This document shows, piece by piece, positions 15,835 through 26,716 of a DNA stretch of 64,000 nt; the first letter of the stretch is position 1; each line of letters starts with the position of its first letter. The notes below the pieces were generated by a model, which was not told where the DNA came from, searched no databases, and was given only the letters and a program-made list of their open reading frames with translations. Source of the stretch: Leucothrix arctica (lineage in GTDB: Bacteria > Pseudomonadota > Gammaproteobacteria > Thiotrichales > Thiotrichaceae); the NCBI RefSeq assembly GCF_003172895.1, contig NZ_QGKL01000042.1:124001-188000 (forward strand), given 5' to 3'. The position numbers were made by a program, and so were the translations under genes.

Positions 15835-17595
15835 TTGGATATGCGATCATCTGTAGATTTTGAAACAATTGCTGAAACAGTGCTAAATATGTTCGATAGA
15901 CACTACAGTATTTTTTTAGATATCACTCGGGGAGCCAAACAGCGTTTTGTTTTACAGGACTGGGAAGCCGACCGGGTAGCATCTAGGCAACGTATAACGT
16001 TATATCAAAAGCGAGTAGATGAGGCCTGCGATCAAATTAGTGAGCAATTTGACTTAAGTAATGTTGATAAAGAGCTTTGGCGAAACGTAAAGCGGGTTTA
16101 TGTTACTTTATTATATGAACACAGACAGCCAGAGCTAGCAGAGACATTCTACAACTCTGTCTTTACCCGATCATTTGCCCATCGCTATTATAATAATGAC
16201 AATCTATTTGTAAGGCCTGCACTCTCTACTGCCTATTTAACGGGCAGTAACCCCGCTTACAAAAGCTATTACCCAATGAAGATCAATCTCACTGAATGTC
16301 TTCAAGAAGTACTGCGTCAGTGTGATGTGGGCTTGAACTTCGCCAATTTTGATCGCGATGTGTCGTACCTAACAGACCAGCTCCAGTACATATTGAAGAC
16401 TACCCGTAAGTACACTGACTCTTACCAAATCCAAGTCTTAACACCTTTGTTTTATCGTAATAAAGCGGCTTATATTGTAGGGCGAGTGCTTAACGGGGCT
16501 CACTTTCATCCTTTTGTTATTCCTTTGTTACATGATGAAAATGGTGAAGTGTATGCGGATGCATTACTATCTGAGAGTAAAGACATCACCAACTTATTTA
16601 GCTTTGCGCGTGCCTACTTTATGGCAGATACCGAAGTACCTTCTGCAGTGGTAAATTTCCTTCATCAAATGCTGCCTCATAAAACAGCGGCAGATCTATA
16701 CACCTCTATAGGGTTACAGAAACAAGGTAAAACCGAGTTTTATCGTGACTTCCTGGCACATTTACGTCATTCAACTGATCAGTTGGTGACATCCAAAGGC
16801 ACGCTCGGAATGGTGATGACTGTATTTACGCTTCCATCGTATCCCTTTGTATTCAAAGTTATTAATGACCGCTTTGCACCACCAAAGCGTGTAACGACTC
16901 ATTTGGTAAAAGAAAAATACCAGCTGGTAAAAATGCATGATCGCGTTGGGAGACTTGCGGATACGTTAGAGTTTTCTCACGTAGCACTACCACTTAATCG
17001 ATTCTCTGAAGACCTACTCGAAAGCTTAAAACAGCGCATCCCATCCAGTATTAAAATTGAAGGTGACATGCTGATTATTCGACACCTATATATAGAGCGT
17101 CGATTGGAGCCATTAAATCTATATGTTGACGAGGTGAGGGGAGACAAGTTGGAAGGCGCATTTGTGGAATACGGGAATGCTATAAAGGAACTAGCTGAAG
17201 CCAATATTTTTCCGGGCGACTTGTTATTAAAGAACTTCGGTGTCACCACTAACTGCCGTGTGATCTTTTATGACTATGATGAGATTGAACTTATGGAGGA
17301 TTGTAACTTTAGAAAAATACCTGCACCTGAGAATATGCAGCAAATGATGGCATCGGAGCCTTGGTATTCGGTTGATGAAAAAGACGTGTTCCCAGAAGAG
17401 TTTTTGCTGTTTGTATCATCACGAGTCGAGCGTAAAGAGCTTTTTATGAAGCATCATAAAGACTTGCTTGATGTTGATTATTGGCGAGCAGTTCAAGAAA
17501 GGATTCGCGCTGGCGTTATTGGCGATGTATTTCCTTATGACAAAACAAACCGCTTCCAAAATATTTACGATGGCCGGATTTTGCCGAAAAAGTAA
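15835..17595 (+). CDS. aceK: Isocitrate dehydrogenase kinase/phosphatase
   Basis: 586 residues, normal for AceK. It phosphorylates and dephosphorylates isocitrate dehydrogenase, directing carbon to the glyoxylate shunt on acetate or fatty acids. The regulatory N-terminal half and the kinase half are intact, including the ATP-binding GMVMTVFTLPSYPFVFKV with its lysine near residue 340, and the GDLLLKNFGVT and VIFYDYDEI blocks of the catalytic site. Two starts are possible: TTG at 15835 lies 6 nt after GGGAGG, while ATG at 15841 would be 12 nt away, so TTG is preferred. No aceA, aceB or icd gene lies in the window, so it is detached from its usual partners. Confidence 0.95.
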   Translation: MDMRSSVDFETIAETVLNMFDRHYSIFLDITRGAKQRFVLQDWEADRVASRQRITLYQKRVDEACDQISEQFDLSNVDKELWRNVKRVYVTLLYEHRQPELAETFYNSVFTRSFAHRYYNNDNLFVRPALSTAYLTGSNPAYKSYYPMKINLTECLQEVLRQCDVGLNFANFDRDVSYLTDQLQYILKTTRKYTDSYQIQVLTPLFYRNKAAYIVGRVLNGAHFHPFVIPLLHDENGEVYADALLSESKDITNLFSFARAYFMADTEVPSAVVNFLHQMLPHKTAADLYTSIGLQKQGKTEFYRDFLAHLRHSTDQLVTSKGTLGMVMTVFTLPSYPFVFKVINDRFAPPKRVTTHLVKEKYQLVKMHDRVGRLADTLEFSHVALPLNRFSEDLLESLKQRIPSSIKIEGDMLIIRHLYIERRLEPLNLYVDEVRGDKLEGAFVEYGNAIKELAEANIFPGDLLLKNFGVTTNCRVIFYDYDEIELMEDCNFRKIPAPENMQQMMASEPWYSVDEKDVFPEEFLLFVSSRVERKELFMKHHKDLLDVDYWRAVQERIRAGVIGDVFPYDKTNRFQNIYDGRILPKK

Positions 17596-22388: not shown

Positions 22389-22480
22389 AGCCCTGCTGGT
22401 TGCTAATACAATGTTCTACGCCGACGCGCTTTGCGCGAAAGGTCTGCGATCATCGTATTAGCAATCAACGGGGCTTTTTT
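22389..22480 (+). repeat. Core-arm inverted repeat, copy A; also terminator of mqo
   Basis: Left arm 22389-22413 and right arm 22451-22475 are complementary at 21 of 25 positions; all four differences are transitions. Between them lies a 37-nt core (22414-22450) holding CGCCGACGCGC-ttt-GCGCGAAAGG. The hairpin ends in GGGGCTTTTTT, so the transcript of mqo should stop here. The core differs at two positions from copy B near 42.46 kb. Confidence 0.85.
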
Positions 22481-22499
22481 ATTGATGTGAAATTAAGGC

Positions 22500-23359: not shown

Positions 23360-24538
23360 TTAGTCGTCTGATAGCTCGAATAGTGTTTTTTGCTCATCAG
23401 TGAGCGCGGGTGGAATAAGTACAAATTTGCCCACGTGCTTTTTCTCTGTGAACTCTTGCTGTGCTTGAGCGATATCTTGTAACGGGAAAGTTTTAGCCAG
23501 TAGCGGTTTGATTTCACCCCGCTCGATATAGCTAATCAGGTTTGGAAAAATAGGCTCGTCCCAACCTGTGCATCCAATAAGTGTCAGGTCTTTTAGGTAT
23601 AAGTTGCGCATGTCTAGGCTAACGATTGGCCCTGCGATAGCACCAGATGACGCATAACGACCACCACGCTTTAATACTTGTGTCATTTGGCCAAATGTTT
23701 CACCTGCGACATTATCAATGACAACGTCCATCGACTTTTCGCCAAGCGCTTCAACAAGGTCAGTACCACGTGTCACGATACGATCAGCCCCTAGAATAGC
23801 GGCTTCTTCAACTTTATTAGCACCAACAATAGCCGTCACGATAGCACCACGACGTTTAGCGAGTTGAACGACGGCTGAGCCAACACCACCTGAAGCACCA
23901 GCGACTAGTACCGTGTCACCCGCGCTGACATCTGCACGGTGAATCATGTTTTCAGCAGTACCGTATGCACAAGGAATCGTACCCAGCTCTGCATCTGTCC
24001 AGTCACTTTCAACAGCAAAGACTTCTGATGCAGCAATTTTTACAAACTGAGCAAAAGCACCGTCAAAGTCAGAAGCCATCCAAATATTTTCTGGCGAATT
24101 CCAGCCTTCGTTTCTAATACTGCAACGGATAAGTACTCGCTCATTAATTCGGTTAGCATCGATGTTTGCTCCAACCGAAACAATTCGACCGCAGCAGTCG
24201 GTGCCTTGAACAAACGGAAAGGGCGTTTCTTCGTTCCACCCACCATCTGACTCACTTGCTGCGTTTTCTTGTTCGGCGTCATTACTACCGAGTGCTTCTG
24301 TGCCTTCGGTAACTTTTGAAGAGTACCAACCAAGGCGGGTATTGATTTCAGTATTATTAACGCCCGCTGCAAGTACTTGAACTAAGACTTCATCGTCATT
24401 TGGCGTCGGGATAGCGACATCTTGGTAGCTGAGCATTTCATAACCGCCGTTTGCTAGTGTCACGACTGCTTTCATGGATACTTGAGTATCCTTTAGTTTA
24501 AATCTGTTCTTATCCCATGAAGGGGTTGAAATGGTCAT
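23360..24538 (-). CDS. Medium-chain zinc-type alcohol dehydrogenase / quinone reductase family protein
   Basis: 392 residues from ATG at 24538, chosen because GGAG lies 5 nt upstream; an in-frame ATG at 24598 has no such site. The GroES-like domain begins at SMKAVVTLANGGYEML and keeps AAGVNNTEINTRLGWY; the VQGTDCCGRIVSVG block follows and then the Rossmann motif VLVAGASGGVGSAVVQLAKRRGA. The NAD(P)-binding residues are intact; classical structural-zinc cysteines are not obvious, so an oxidoreductase of the quinone-reductase side of the superfamily is likely. Substrate unknown. It is followed closely by a membrane protein gene. Confidence 0.8.
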   Translation of the reverse strand: MTISTPSWDKNRFKLKDTQVSMKAVVTLANGGYEMLSYQDVAIPTPNDDEVLVQVLAAGVNNTEINTRLGWYSSKVTEGTEALGSNDAEQENAASESDGGWNEETPFPFVQGTDCCGRIVSVGANIDANRINERVLIRCSIRNEGWNSPENIWMASDFDGAFAQFVKIAASEVFAVESDWTDAELGTIPCAYGTAENMIHRADVSAGDTVLVAGASGGVGSAVVQLAKRRGAIVTAIVGANKVEEAAILGADRIVTRGTDLVEALGEKSMDVVIDNVAGETFGQMTQVLKRGGRYASSGAIAGPIVSLDMRNLYLKDLTLIGCTGWDEPIFPNLISYIERGEIKPLLAKTFPLQDIAQAQQEFTEKKHVGKFVLIPPALTDEQKTLFELSDD

Positions 24539-24663
24539 GAATGCTCCGAGGTATTTTGATGGTGAATTGTGAAGCTGATCAGGTCTGAGAACAGGCATTC
24601 AAAGTAAAGAGTATGATACTCATAAACGGATGTAAAAGCATGTGAACTGGGTGATTTGGCAAA

Positions 24664-24686
24664 GTTGCTTAAGTCATTAATTTTGG
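24664..24686 (+). promoter_or_regulatory. Possible promoter of the histidine-rich leader
   Basis: TTGCTT (24664-24669) and, 17 bp later, TAGAGT form a modest sigma-70 promoter that would start transcription a few bases before the leader ATG at 24702. Confidence 0.35.
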
Positions 24687-24701
24687 ATAGAGTCTGAACC
24701 T

Positions 24702-24785
24702 ATGAAAATTTTAATCATCAACCAAATAGTAATTTTTCATCATCATCCTCACCATATTCGGCTGGGGAAGTTACTGCTTGCATGA
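24702..24785 (+). CDS. Histidine-rich leader peptide (his-attenuator type)
   Basis: 27 codons: MKILIINQIVIF then HHHPHH then IRLGKLLLA and TGA. Five histidine codons out of six in a very short frame, followed 21 nt later by a Rho-independent hairpin, is the classic layout of the histidine operon attenuator. Shine-Dalgarno is weak. The surprise is the location: the genes after it are a peptidase E relative and a DUF6891 protein, not histidine biosynthesis. It may be a displaced or recruited attenuator. A metal-binding peptide by chance is the main alternative. Confidence 0.55.
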   Translation: MKILIINQIVIFHHHPHHIRLGKLLLA

Positions 24786-24806
24786 TGTTTTGCCCGATCA
24801 TCAAGA

Positions 24807-24840
24807 AAGCTCTCTCAGCACTGCTAAGAGGGCTTTTTTT
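24807..24840 (+). terminator. Attenuator-type terminator after the leader peptide
   Basis: AAGCTCTCT (24807-24815) pairs with AGAGGGCTT (24827-24835) with one G-U pair, and the loop can pair further (AGC/GCT). TTTTTTT follows at 24834-24840. Upstream, ATGAT (24782-24786) and ATCAT (24796-24800) can form a competing hairpin, as needed for attenuation. Confidence 0.65.
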
Positions 24841-24939
24841 ATTTATATCGGAGTAAAAAATGAAATTTAATTTAGTAGTTAGTCATAAATATGATGTACA
24901 TGTTACCGAAGGCTCTAAACAGCAAAGAGGTAGCGGACA

Positions 24940-25567
24940 ATGAAGTATTACCTATCGTCTTATAAGCTTGGGGAATCACCAGAAAAATTCACTCAGCTGC
25001 TAAAAAAATGGCAACACTGTGGGCTATATTCCAAACGCGACAGACTTCACAGTCGCTGATCTTGAGCAAGTAAAGTCTCATAGAGTCAGTGATGTTGAGG
25101 ATTTAGAAAAACTGGGTTTAGCTGTGAAAGTTGTAGATTTAAAACAGTACTTTGATTCTGACCCTAAAGAACTAGAAGGCCTTGTGAGTTCACTATCAGG
25201 CTTATGGGTAAGTGGCGGAAATGTGTTTATCTTACGTCAAGCGATGATGCTTAGCGGCCTTGATCAGCTCATCATAGAGAAGAGCAAAGACCCAGTCTTT
25301 GTCTATGGTGGCTATAGCGCAGGCTGTTGCGTATTATCCAAATCACTTAAATCATATCAGTATGCCAGCGACGCTAACGACACACCTTATTCGGGTATTA
25401 GTACTGCTAATTGGGACGGCTTGGGTTTAATTAATTTTGCCTTCATGCCACACTTTCAGTCAGACCACTCGGAGTCCGAAGCTATCGATAAAGAGATCGC
25501 GTATTGCAATGCTAACGGGATAAGTTATAAACCAGTAAAGGACGGAGATGTTCTTATCTATGAGTAA
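24940..25567 (+). pseudogene. Peptidase E-like (family S51) gene with a frameshift
   Basis: The family start MKYYLSSYKLGESPEKF begins at ATG 24940 with AGAGG upstream, but the frame breaks at a run of seven A (25002-25008). Deleting one A joins it to NGNTVGYIPNATDF and the rest, which is intact to 25567. The catalytic serine motif GGYSAGC and the PHF..DHSES block remain. Relatives cleave Asp-X dipeptides or similar. As read, only a shortened form from GTG 25019 (182 residues) can be made, lacking the first beta strand. Sequencing error in the homopolymer, phase variation by slippage, or true decay are all possible. Confidence 0.7.
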
Positions 25568-26132
25568 TACAATGCCTGAATATCAAATAGTCAGTGAACT
25601 ACGATCTTTAGTTAGATCTGGTTTCTACACCAAACAAGAATTACTCGATATGTTTTGTAATGAAATATGTGAGTCTTGTAATGTAGTCCCGGAAGATGTC
25701 TCGACCATCATAGACTCTGATATGGAAAGCATAAAAGCTGAGAAAACGACATGGCCTGCTGTAACAGATTGTGATCGTTTAGATTTAGCATTCTCAGTGC
25801 TTAACTCTGTCGGTATGATTTCATTGCAAAATGCTGGATGCACACAGAGCGACGCTTATGGTGATATCCAAGACTTGTATAACAAACACCCGAATCAAGA
25901 CTCTGTCATTGGATACTGCTTTTATCACCGTCAAGACTTAGAAAGAGCTGTTCGAGGCATGGGGCTATATGTTGCCTTTGGCCCTATGGACGCAAAACTA
26001 GAAGACACCGAAGGCCCAAAGATAGGCGAAGTGATTCGTGAGACGTTAGAAAAGCAAGGTCTTGAAGTGGAGTGGGATGGTACTTTTAATACCAGAATGT
26101 TGTTACCCACCATTACTTGGAAAAAGCGATAA
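25560..26132 (+). CDS. DUF6891 domain protein
   Basis: 190 residues from ATG at 25560, which overlaps the end of the peptidase E frame and has GGAG 12 nt upstream; the ATG at 25548 would overlap that site and is unlikely. The sequence carries the pattern I know as DUF6891: WPAVTDCDRLDLAF, QNAGCTQSDAYGDI, FYHRQDLERAV, GLYVAFGPM, IGEVIRETLEKQGLEVEW and a C-terminal W-K-K-R. Soluble, no signal peptide, function unknown. The overlap suggests translation coupled to the peptidase gene, and control by the same leader. Confidence 0.65.
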   Translation: MSNTMPEYQIVSELRSLVRSGFYTKQELLDMFCNEICESCNVVPEDVSTIIDSDMESIKAEKTTWPAVTDCDRLDLAFSVLNSVGMISLQNAGCTQSDAYGDIQDLYNKHPNQDSVIGYCFYHRQDLERAVRGMGLYVAFGPMDAKLEDTEGPKIGEVIRETLEKQGLEVEWDGTFNTRMLLPTITWKKR

Positions 26133-26224: not shown

Positions 26225-26716
26225 TTAACTACTAGAAGACTCGTCCAGTAACCAGTTATAAAATAATGTTGAAGCAGGTGACAAAGCGGTTCCCCGTCGA
26301 TGACAAAGGTAATAGCTACCTTCTGATTCAATACTTTCAATAAATGGGGCAACCAACTGCTGGGAAAACGCACCTTCTTGCATCATTTCGTCGTACATTA
26401 TTCAAACCCCAAAGCCATTTTCAGCCATGCTAACAGCGAATGCATGGCTGTCCATATAGTGACGCGGTTGTTTACTCAGCGTAGATAAGTCCATCTTTAG
26501 TAGCCACTCATCCCAACCTTGTTTTGTTCTGAGTACATCCAGTATTGGTAAACTTTTCAAGTCGGTGAGTGTACGTAAATGTTTTGCCTTTTGCGGACTG
26601 CAATAGGGTCTTAAATTGGGAGTAATTAGACGATTAGATTCAAACTCAGGCCAGTTTTCCATGCCATAACGAATCTCTAGATCAAGCTGACGAACATCAC
26701 TCGCGATTACTTTACT
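26225..26716 (-). pseudogene. LysR-type regulator remnant (GcvA-like), N-terminus lost, in-frame stop
   Basis: Only the effector-binding domain survives. The frame is open from 26716 and reads SDVRQLDLEIRYGMENWPEF, then the CSPQKA, ILDVLRTKQGWDEWL and MDSHAFAVSMAENGFGV blocks. A TGA at 26402-26404 interrupts it, and the same frame continues to 26225 with YYLCHRRGTALSPAS and NWLLDESSSS, the normal LysR C-terminus. The helix-turn-helix and about the first half of the protein are missing. This is a dead regulator next to the XRE-cupin gene; its former target is unknown. Confidence 0.75.

Follow-up and report, generated by a model that had tools for sequence, protein, structure and literature searches.

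An apparently orphaned histidine-codon attenuator of Leucothrix arctica, related to the leaders of HisRS paralogs

Introduction

Attenuation of amino acid operons involves a leader ORF with regulatory codons, a terminator and an antiterminator (PMC1183508), and the his operon leader (Rfam RF00514) is characterized by a run of His codons, a terminator and alternative folds. Histidine leader peptides have also been described in bacilli, upstream of hisS* and hisZ (Naville and Gautheret, 2010; PMC2965389). Here we describe a leader in a 64-kb stretch of DNA from Leucothrix arctica (the window) which shares these elements with the amino acid operons, but is followed by genes that do not belong to amino acid biosynthesis. 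Its homologues resemble the leaders of bacilli in that a His-codon leader with an attenuator precedes a paralog of histidyl-tRNA synthetase (HisRS). However, the leaders of bacilli are from Firmicutes, that paper reports no sequence similarity to proteobacterial leaders, and no HisRS paralog follows the copy in the window. While His leaders before such paralogs are thus already in print for bacilli, what is new here is that the window leader has homologues before HisRS paralogs; in one open-access library, PMC7824862, PMC5009743 and PMC9437257 included, we found no report of the gammaproteobacterial leaders or of a His-codon frameshift such as that described below.

Results

Layout of the leader and its surroundings

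The features of the locus are as follows:

24665-24693, plus strand: weak promoter-like pair (TTGCTT-17-TAGAGT; 7/12 consensus matches), located 37 nt ahead of the leader ATG
24702-24785, plus strand: leader ORF MKILIINQIVIFHHHPHHIRLGKLLLA, 27 codons and TGA, homologous to the leaders of a gammaproteobacterial genome (G362) and of Pseudomonas silesiensis
24716-24787, plus strand: predicted long hairpin (minimum free energy fold) hiding the antiterminator strand without a stalled ribosome
24738-24755, plus strand: regulatory codons HHHPHH, five His codons within the leader ORF
24761-24772, plus strand: antiterminator 5' strand (region 2), predicted to pair with 24808-24819 when the His codons are masked
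24803-24840, plus strand: strong intrinsic terminator; 24803-24819 and 24823-24839 form the stem, and the run of seven T is at 24834-24840
24860-24943, plus strand: 27-codon ORF with a good ribosome-binding site, its stop overlapping the peptidase start (ATGA); no Pfam match
24940-25567, plus strand: peptidase E-like (S51) gene (Peptidase_S51, E 7.9e-17), interrupted at a seven-A run (25002-25008)
25548-26132, plus strand: intact DUF6891 gene (DUF6891, E 1e-51), overlapping the peptidase end
26402-26662, minus strand: remnant of a LysR-type regulator with a weak, sub-threshold Pfam match

The 27-codon frame with HHHPHH and the terminator with seven T, as reported by the first-pass annotation, are present at 24702-24840, giving the layout of an attenuator: a short ORF carrying a series of codons for a single amino acid, then a terminator. 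The terminator stem begins 17 nt past the leader ORF end (24785), and its 5' arm is common to the antiterminator in the predicted folds. The leader is flanked by a divergent gene on the minus strand (23360-24598, alcohol-dehydrogenase-like) and by a plus-strand unit made up of the 27-codon ORF, the peptidase E-like gene and DUF6891; since no plus-strand gene lies upstream of the leader in this gap, the terminator does not close off a preceding gene. We infer only from its sequence that 24665-24693 might serve as the promoter: two overlapping alternatives to this pair score 8/12 consensus matches, and a stricter scan found no promoter. The leaders of G362 and P. silesiensis have a TTGAC[A/G] box at -35 and -36. 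Elsewhere in the window, a further His-rich short ORF (MHPHTLHHFHHVTKE) was seen at 16564 on the minus strand, and a short repeat (22400-22482) is 89% identical to a site of the same contig at a distance of about 20 kb, and part of it also matches contigs C7 and C28 of this genome.

The leader and the his operon

The first-pass annotation had likened the locus to the his operon leader. The attenuator layout away from his genes was borne out, but neither a match to RF00514 nor a downstream hisG was found: the window leader does not match the His_leader model at the gathering score, nor is such a match among the 30 listed up to E 10. With stricter filters, the best match of this model in the L. 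arctica genome lies outside the window leader and below the cut-off, and none of the 63 genomes of the order has a match above it. The one hisG found in the genome is on another contig (G000:C29) and has no His leader within 1.5 kb upstream, so that the identical leader on a normal his operon, which the first-pass annotation had named as grounds for rejecting its idea, was not seen. A near-copy of the window leader is likewise absent from the rest of the genome, the next match being of 26 bases (E 0.7). Because hisG is leaderless and no near-copy exists, we rejected the idea that the leader is a duplicate of a his leader of L. arctica itself. Judged by these comparisons, the window leader is not a his-operon leader.

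Relatives of the leader

Searches with the leader DNA found it in one of 57 relatives, namely L. arctica itself. Among 369 gammaproteobacterial genomes, seven had some match at E <= 0.001, comprising L. arctica, G362 (with 88 matching bases at E 4e-6) and a further five with 29-53 bases (L181-L185), which we did not accept as leaders; this search scored no more than two candidates per genome and may therefore have missed leaders. On plasmids and phages, the leader DNA gave short matches only (E 0.03 or weaker). The G362 leader (MRKNQSHMIHQYHQANHIWLGALLLV) and that of a P. silesiensis plasmid (MNTSTQFFALHHHQSHCRLGALLRVENTIS) have ORFs of 26 and 30 codons with the His codons at the same place, and each is followed by a terminator resembling that of the window. 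In local alignments the window leader scored 236 against G362, where none of 1000 shuffles was as good (best 106), and 140 against P. silesiensis, again with none of 1000 as good (best 85); for the stretch before the terminator alone, the result was also 0/1000 for both. A model built from these two leaders finds the window leader (24744-24839, E 3.6e-11) as its only match in the 64-kb window up to E 10, and in 100 of 296 loci (506,558 bases) it found the training leaders only, each on both strands. The P. silesiensis stretch had no match in E. coli genomes.

These comparisons indicate that the leaders of the window, G362 and P. silesiensis belong to a single related group. The absence of conserved His codons in relatives had been named beforehand as an argument against the attenuator, and here the outcome is divided: P. 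silesiensis keeps HHHQSH, but in G362 the His codons are scattered (HQYHQANH) and there is no run of them. Against leaders from Paraburkholderia plasmids (see below), the window leader showed no kinship with L188 (494/1000 shuffles as good) and a marginal one with L189 (5/1000); the Paraburkholderia and viral leaders are similar in design and may have arisen separately. Leader-like peptides were found in 17 of the 63 genomes of the order at E <= 1, L. arctica included. Apart from seven weaker matches left out of the reading, these gave 14 other loci, none of which is a short His ORF with a terminator hairpin; several are antisense within coding genes (e.g., L159/L161).

HisRS paralogs behind the leaders

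In both G362 and P. silesiensis, the leader and terminator stand directly upstream of a stand-alone HisRS paralog of about 210 residues. Such paralogs correspond to the catalytic core (PF13393) and have half the length of an ordinary hisS product. A profile search of the 369 genomes showed stand-alone HisRS in G362 (364 bits) and in one further genome, G300 (338 bits), all others scoring at most 108. In G362, an operon made up of the HisRS-like ORF, a P-loop kinase (AAA_33) and a Thg1-type tRNA-His guanylyltransferase (L186, 5044-10207) follows the leader in this order. Bacterial Thg1 genes in neighbourhoods with a polynucleotide kinase have been predicted to act in RNA repair (PMC2904730), and the G362 operon resembles these in having a P-loop kinase and Thg1; it differs in its HisRS paralog and His leader, neither of which is named in the available part of that paper, and the window has neither the kinase nor the Thg1 gene. 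HisRS is known to charge minihelices carrying G-1 and C73, and Thg1 adds G-1 (PMC9976931). This arrangement could coherently be read as a spare core HisRS that is induced by a shortage of charged tRNA-His. The genes upstream in G362 match the candidate defence families PDC-M68A/B.

A tblastn search with the G362 HisRS-like protein gave 68 plasmid records, and in five the match covered at least 80% of the query. Of these, H27, H28, H30 and H31 were examined, H29 with its annotated hisS in two pieces being left out. A His-codon leader lies just upstream of the HisRS paralog in all four and a terminator in three. One of these leaders is that of P. silesiensis and the other three are from Paraburkholderia (MELRNVPSKAHHHHGRYPLRRGPLRP, MELRNVPNQSRHHHGRHQTRRGSLRP and MEPCLVSNQPRHHHGRHSMRRGSLRP), of which MEPCLVSNQPRHHHGRHSMRRGSLRP has lost the terminator and the gene start. 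No His leader was present at the three phage loci that covered at least 80% of the query (out of 20 phage hits), and of the 72 viral contigs, where the scan reached at most 520 bases upstream of the HisRS match, three have a His-rich ORF with a strong terminator there, L207 and the near-identical L203 and L204. Stand-alone HisRS thus also occurs without such a leader, in G300, in 3/3 phages and in 69/72 viral contigs. In phage Phosso (L193, 3609-4549), a tRNA-His gene lies shortly before the HisRS-like gene. No match to Thg1, the kinase, the peptidase or DUF6891 was obtained at 1e-4 around the HisRS-like loci other than that of G362 (L187-L265 and L296).

In L. arctica itself, a Pfam search found no HisRS paralog directly downstream of the window leader, and the sole profile match in the genome at E <= 1e-20, a threshold at which a decayed paralog scoring weaker would be missed, is the ordinary hisS of 438 residues.

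Predicted folds

Folding the RNA for competing hairpins, as proposed in the first-pass annotation, predicted an antiterminator when a ribosome sits on the His codons. With the transcript cut before the terminator 3' arm, the predicted number of antiterminator pairs in the window leader is 0 for the free RNA, 14 with the ribosome stalled and 0 with the ribosome at the stop (0/14/0). The 14 pairs, or 12 by a narrower definition of the arms, hold with the ribosome on any of the first three His codons. On the full-length transcript the terminator wins in every state tested, including that with the His codons masked, and the antiterminator is predicted only on transcripts cut before the terminator 3' arm. 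The E. coli his leader, put through an equivalent test as a control, behaved similarly: the antiterminator formed in three of four folds with a stalled ribosome and in no free or stop fold. The corresponding predictions for the other leaders (free/stalled/stop) were 0/6/0 for L188, 0/6/4 for L189, 0/7/0 for L207, 10/10-5/3 for L203 and L204, 11/12-14/0 for G362 and 15/15/14 for P. silesiensis. An antiterminator is therefore predicted in each folded leader; the predicted switch is clean in the window, L188 and L207, less clean in L189 and G362 and absent in P. silesiensis, where the pairs hardly change between states.

How much weight these folds can carry was evident from shuffled sequences. 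The fold of the whole window leader is better than those of all 200 shuffles (z -4.2), an excess due largely to the terminator. The antiterminator pairing was equalled in 83/2000 and 23/2000 shuffles and in 84 of 2666 48-mers of the window, so that it is modestly unusual and by itself weak evidence; the full switch arises in 61/1000 shuffles (145 by a looser rule) and in 28/1000. It is the homology to other leaders that is decisive for the window leader.

Split HisRS genes and a candidate +1 frameshift

We classified 81 stand-alone HisRS loci (G362, G300, four plasmids, three phages and 72 viral contigs, some of them near-duplicates), of which 47 are continuous, at least 24 split and 10 not classifiable. 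In the split genes the N-terminal part lies in another frame, always +1. The 24 loci (L188, L189, L193, L202, L212, L214, L215, L221-L224, L226-L230, L235, L238-L243 and L262) comprise 21 recognized by a script and three by reading (L202, L212 and L229). At the frame change, all 24 have [CG]TT CA[CT], at 19 distinct sites, by a script that searched for the motif itself; as conserved residues of the new frame partly constrain the site, this count is not a pure measure. A stop in the 0 frame follows within 0 to 10 codons in 24/24, and in 12/24 the stretch [AC]GG[AG]GG ends 3 nt before the slip codon; nothing alike was seen at L212 and L215. In L202 and L262 the site is at other places in the HisRS gene.

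This resembles the programmed +1 frameshift of prfB (PMC12421855): the split HisRS paralogs often show a Shine-Dalgarno-like, purine-rich stretch, a gap of three nucleotides and a CTT (or GTT) slip codon, with the difference that they have a His codon at the position of the prfB stop. The Paraburkholderia loci L188 and L189 carry both the His leader and the frameshift site. The prfB-like site belongs to the HisRS relatives and not to the window.

The downstream unit

As the first-pass annotation had it, the genes following the leader are a Peptidase_S51 gene and DUF6891 and not his genes; the peptidase frame, however, is interrupted. Its open GTG ORF spans 25019-25567, and its relatives have the N-terminus in one frame; the frame change at 25002-25008 could reflect decay, assembly error or slippage. 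The peptidase occurs in one of 63 genomes of the family (that of L. arctica) and DUF6891 in three of 369 gammaproteobacterial genomes, L. arctica included. The small ORF at 24860-24943 was considered as a HisRS remnant, which is unsupported: 2648 of 20,000 shuffles and 79 of 801 reading frames of the window score as well.

The first-pass annotation had asked whether relatives keep the leader beside this peptidase, and none was found to do so, the homologous leaders preceding stand-alone HisRS instead. At 80 of 171 peptidase loci (a few spanning only 126-770 bases upstream), no His-rich short ORF with a terminator lies upstream on the peptidase strand, by a terminator test looser than that of the chance estimate below, and the best-scoring relative of the peptidase (L070, 57%) has no leader. 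No viral contig was confirmed to carry the peptidase or DUF6891. A comparison within the genus for an empty site gave no clean insertion point, as the neighbours' matches in the two-contig genome G004 are far apart.

Discussion

We suggest, with a probability of roughly 65%, that the window leader is a ribosome-mediated transcription attenuator reading His codons, which shares common descent with the leaders of HisRS paralogs and has here become separated from any such gene. The locus has the leader ORF and the terminator, two homologous leaders precede HisRS paralogs, and no such paralog was found here; because its homologues stand before HisRS paralogs, the window copy looks like a sensor of His shortage parted from its usual gene. 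In the scenario that we propose, RNA polymerase would transcribe the leader with a ribosome following. When charged tRNA-His is ample, the ribosome would reach the stop codon (24783-24785) and cover region 2, allowing the terminator at 24803-24840 to form; when there is no translation, the long hairpin would hide region 2, and the terminator would form as well. When charged tRNA-His is short, the ribosome would stall on HHHPHH, region 2 (24761-24772) could pair with 24808-24819, and transcription would run on into the 27-codon ORF, the interrupted peptidase and DUF6891. The alternative folds are predicted ones, and we presume that the leader is transcribed, still switches and produces read-through that matters for DUF6891.

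The purpose proposed in the first-pass annotation, an attenuator evolved for amino acid scavenging by the peptidase, finds no support here, given that the homologues precede HisRS and that the peptidase was seen in just one of 63 genomes of the family, has a broken frame and has a best-scoring relative without the leader. The suggested rise in peptidase translation also needs rewording, as the switch would act on transcription read-through. The leader is thus a His attenuator by descent and orphaned, possibly still working, and most likely not kept for the peptidase; what is left may be a switch driving DUF6891, or a relic.

That the leader is such a relic, a true His attenuator by descent which came with or lost its HisRS paralog and controls nothing useful in a decaying stretch, we consider unlikely, though it is the rival to be taken most seriously. 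The interrupted peptidase frame, the detection of this gene in a single one of 63 family genomes, the remnant of a LysR-type regulator downstream and the weak promoter-like site would all fit decay, but the leader has kept its His codons, the two hairpins and the T run undamaged, and DUF6891, with its strong match, is intact. A terminator in a gap with no plus-strand gene upstream would also suit a small RNA gene, with a transcript from the divergent intergenic region ending at this terminator and the ORF inside it incidental; this is very improbable in view of the two homologous leaders, which keep the ORF (26 and 30 codons) and the His codons at the same place before a HisRS-like gene. Still harder to sustain is pure chance, with a terminator following a His-rich ORF by coincidence. 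While a genome of 4.75 Mb and the other amino acids, which would have been equally noticeable, widen the search, in 100 Mb of order-3 random sequence (one strand) only 91 words with five His in six codons occurred, of which 33 were in a short ORF and one was also followed by a terminator; 728,891 bases of real sequence (both strands, excluding the E. coli control and five own copies) held one such word and none in a short ORF. Together with the significant homology to two other leaders, this refutes chance in practice.

A wider scenario can be put forward tentatively, as a possibility that we would not favour over its negation. Stand-alone HisRS paralogs on plasmids, in phages and in defence-gene neighbourhoods could be emergency genes for a shortage of charged tRNA-His, switched on through two kinds of sensor, attenuators that read His codons and a +1 frameshift of the prfB type in which a His codon occupies the A site; Paraburkholderia plasmids have the two together. 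The window would then hold a transplanted, still working attenuator that puts the DUF6891 unit under the same alarm. If true, such an alarm for DUF6891 would make more sense as a response to attack on tRNA than as a means of scavenging amino acids.

The orphaned leader suggests that a His-tRNA sensor is separable from its own gene and able to precede unrelated genes. The small HisRS paralogs, which in one genome occur with a kinase and Thg1 beside candidate defence matches, seem to have their expression tied to His-tRNA shortage. If the two sensors, the attenuator and the His-codon frameshift, both work, the function of the HisRS paralogs and of DUF6891 would become directly testable, and mobile elements and phages would be reading the shortage or damage of one tRNA.
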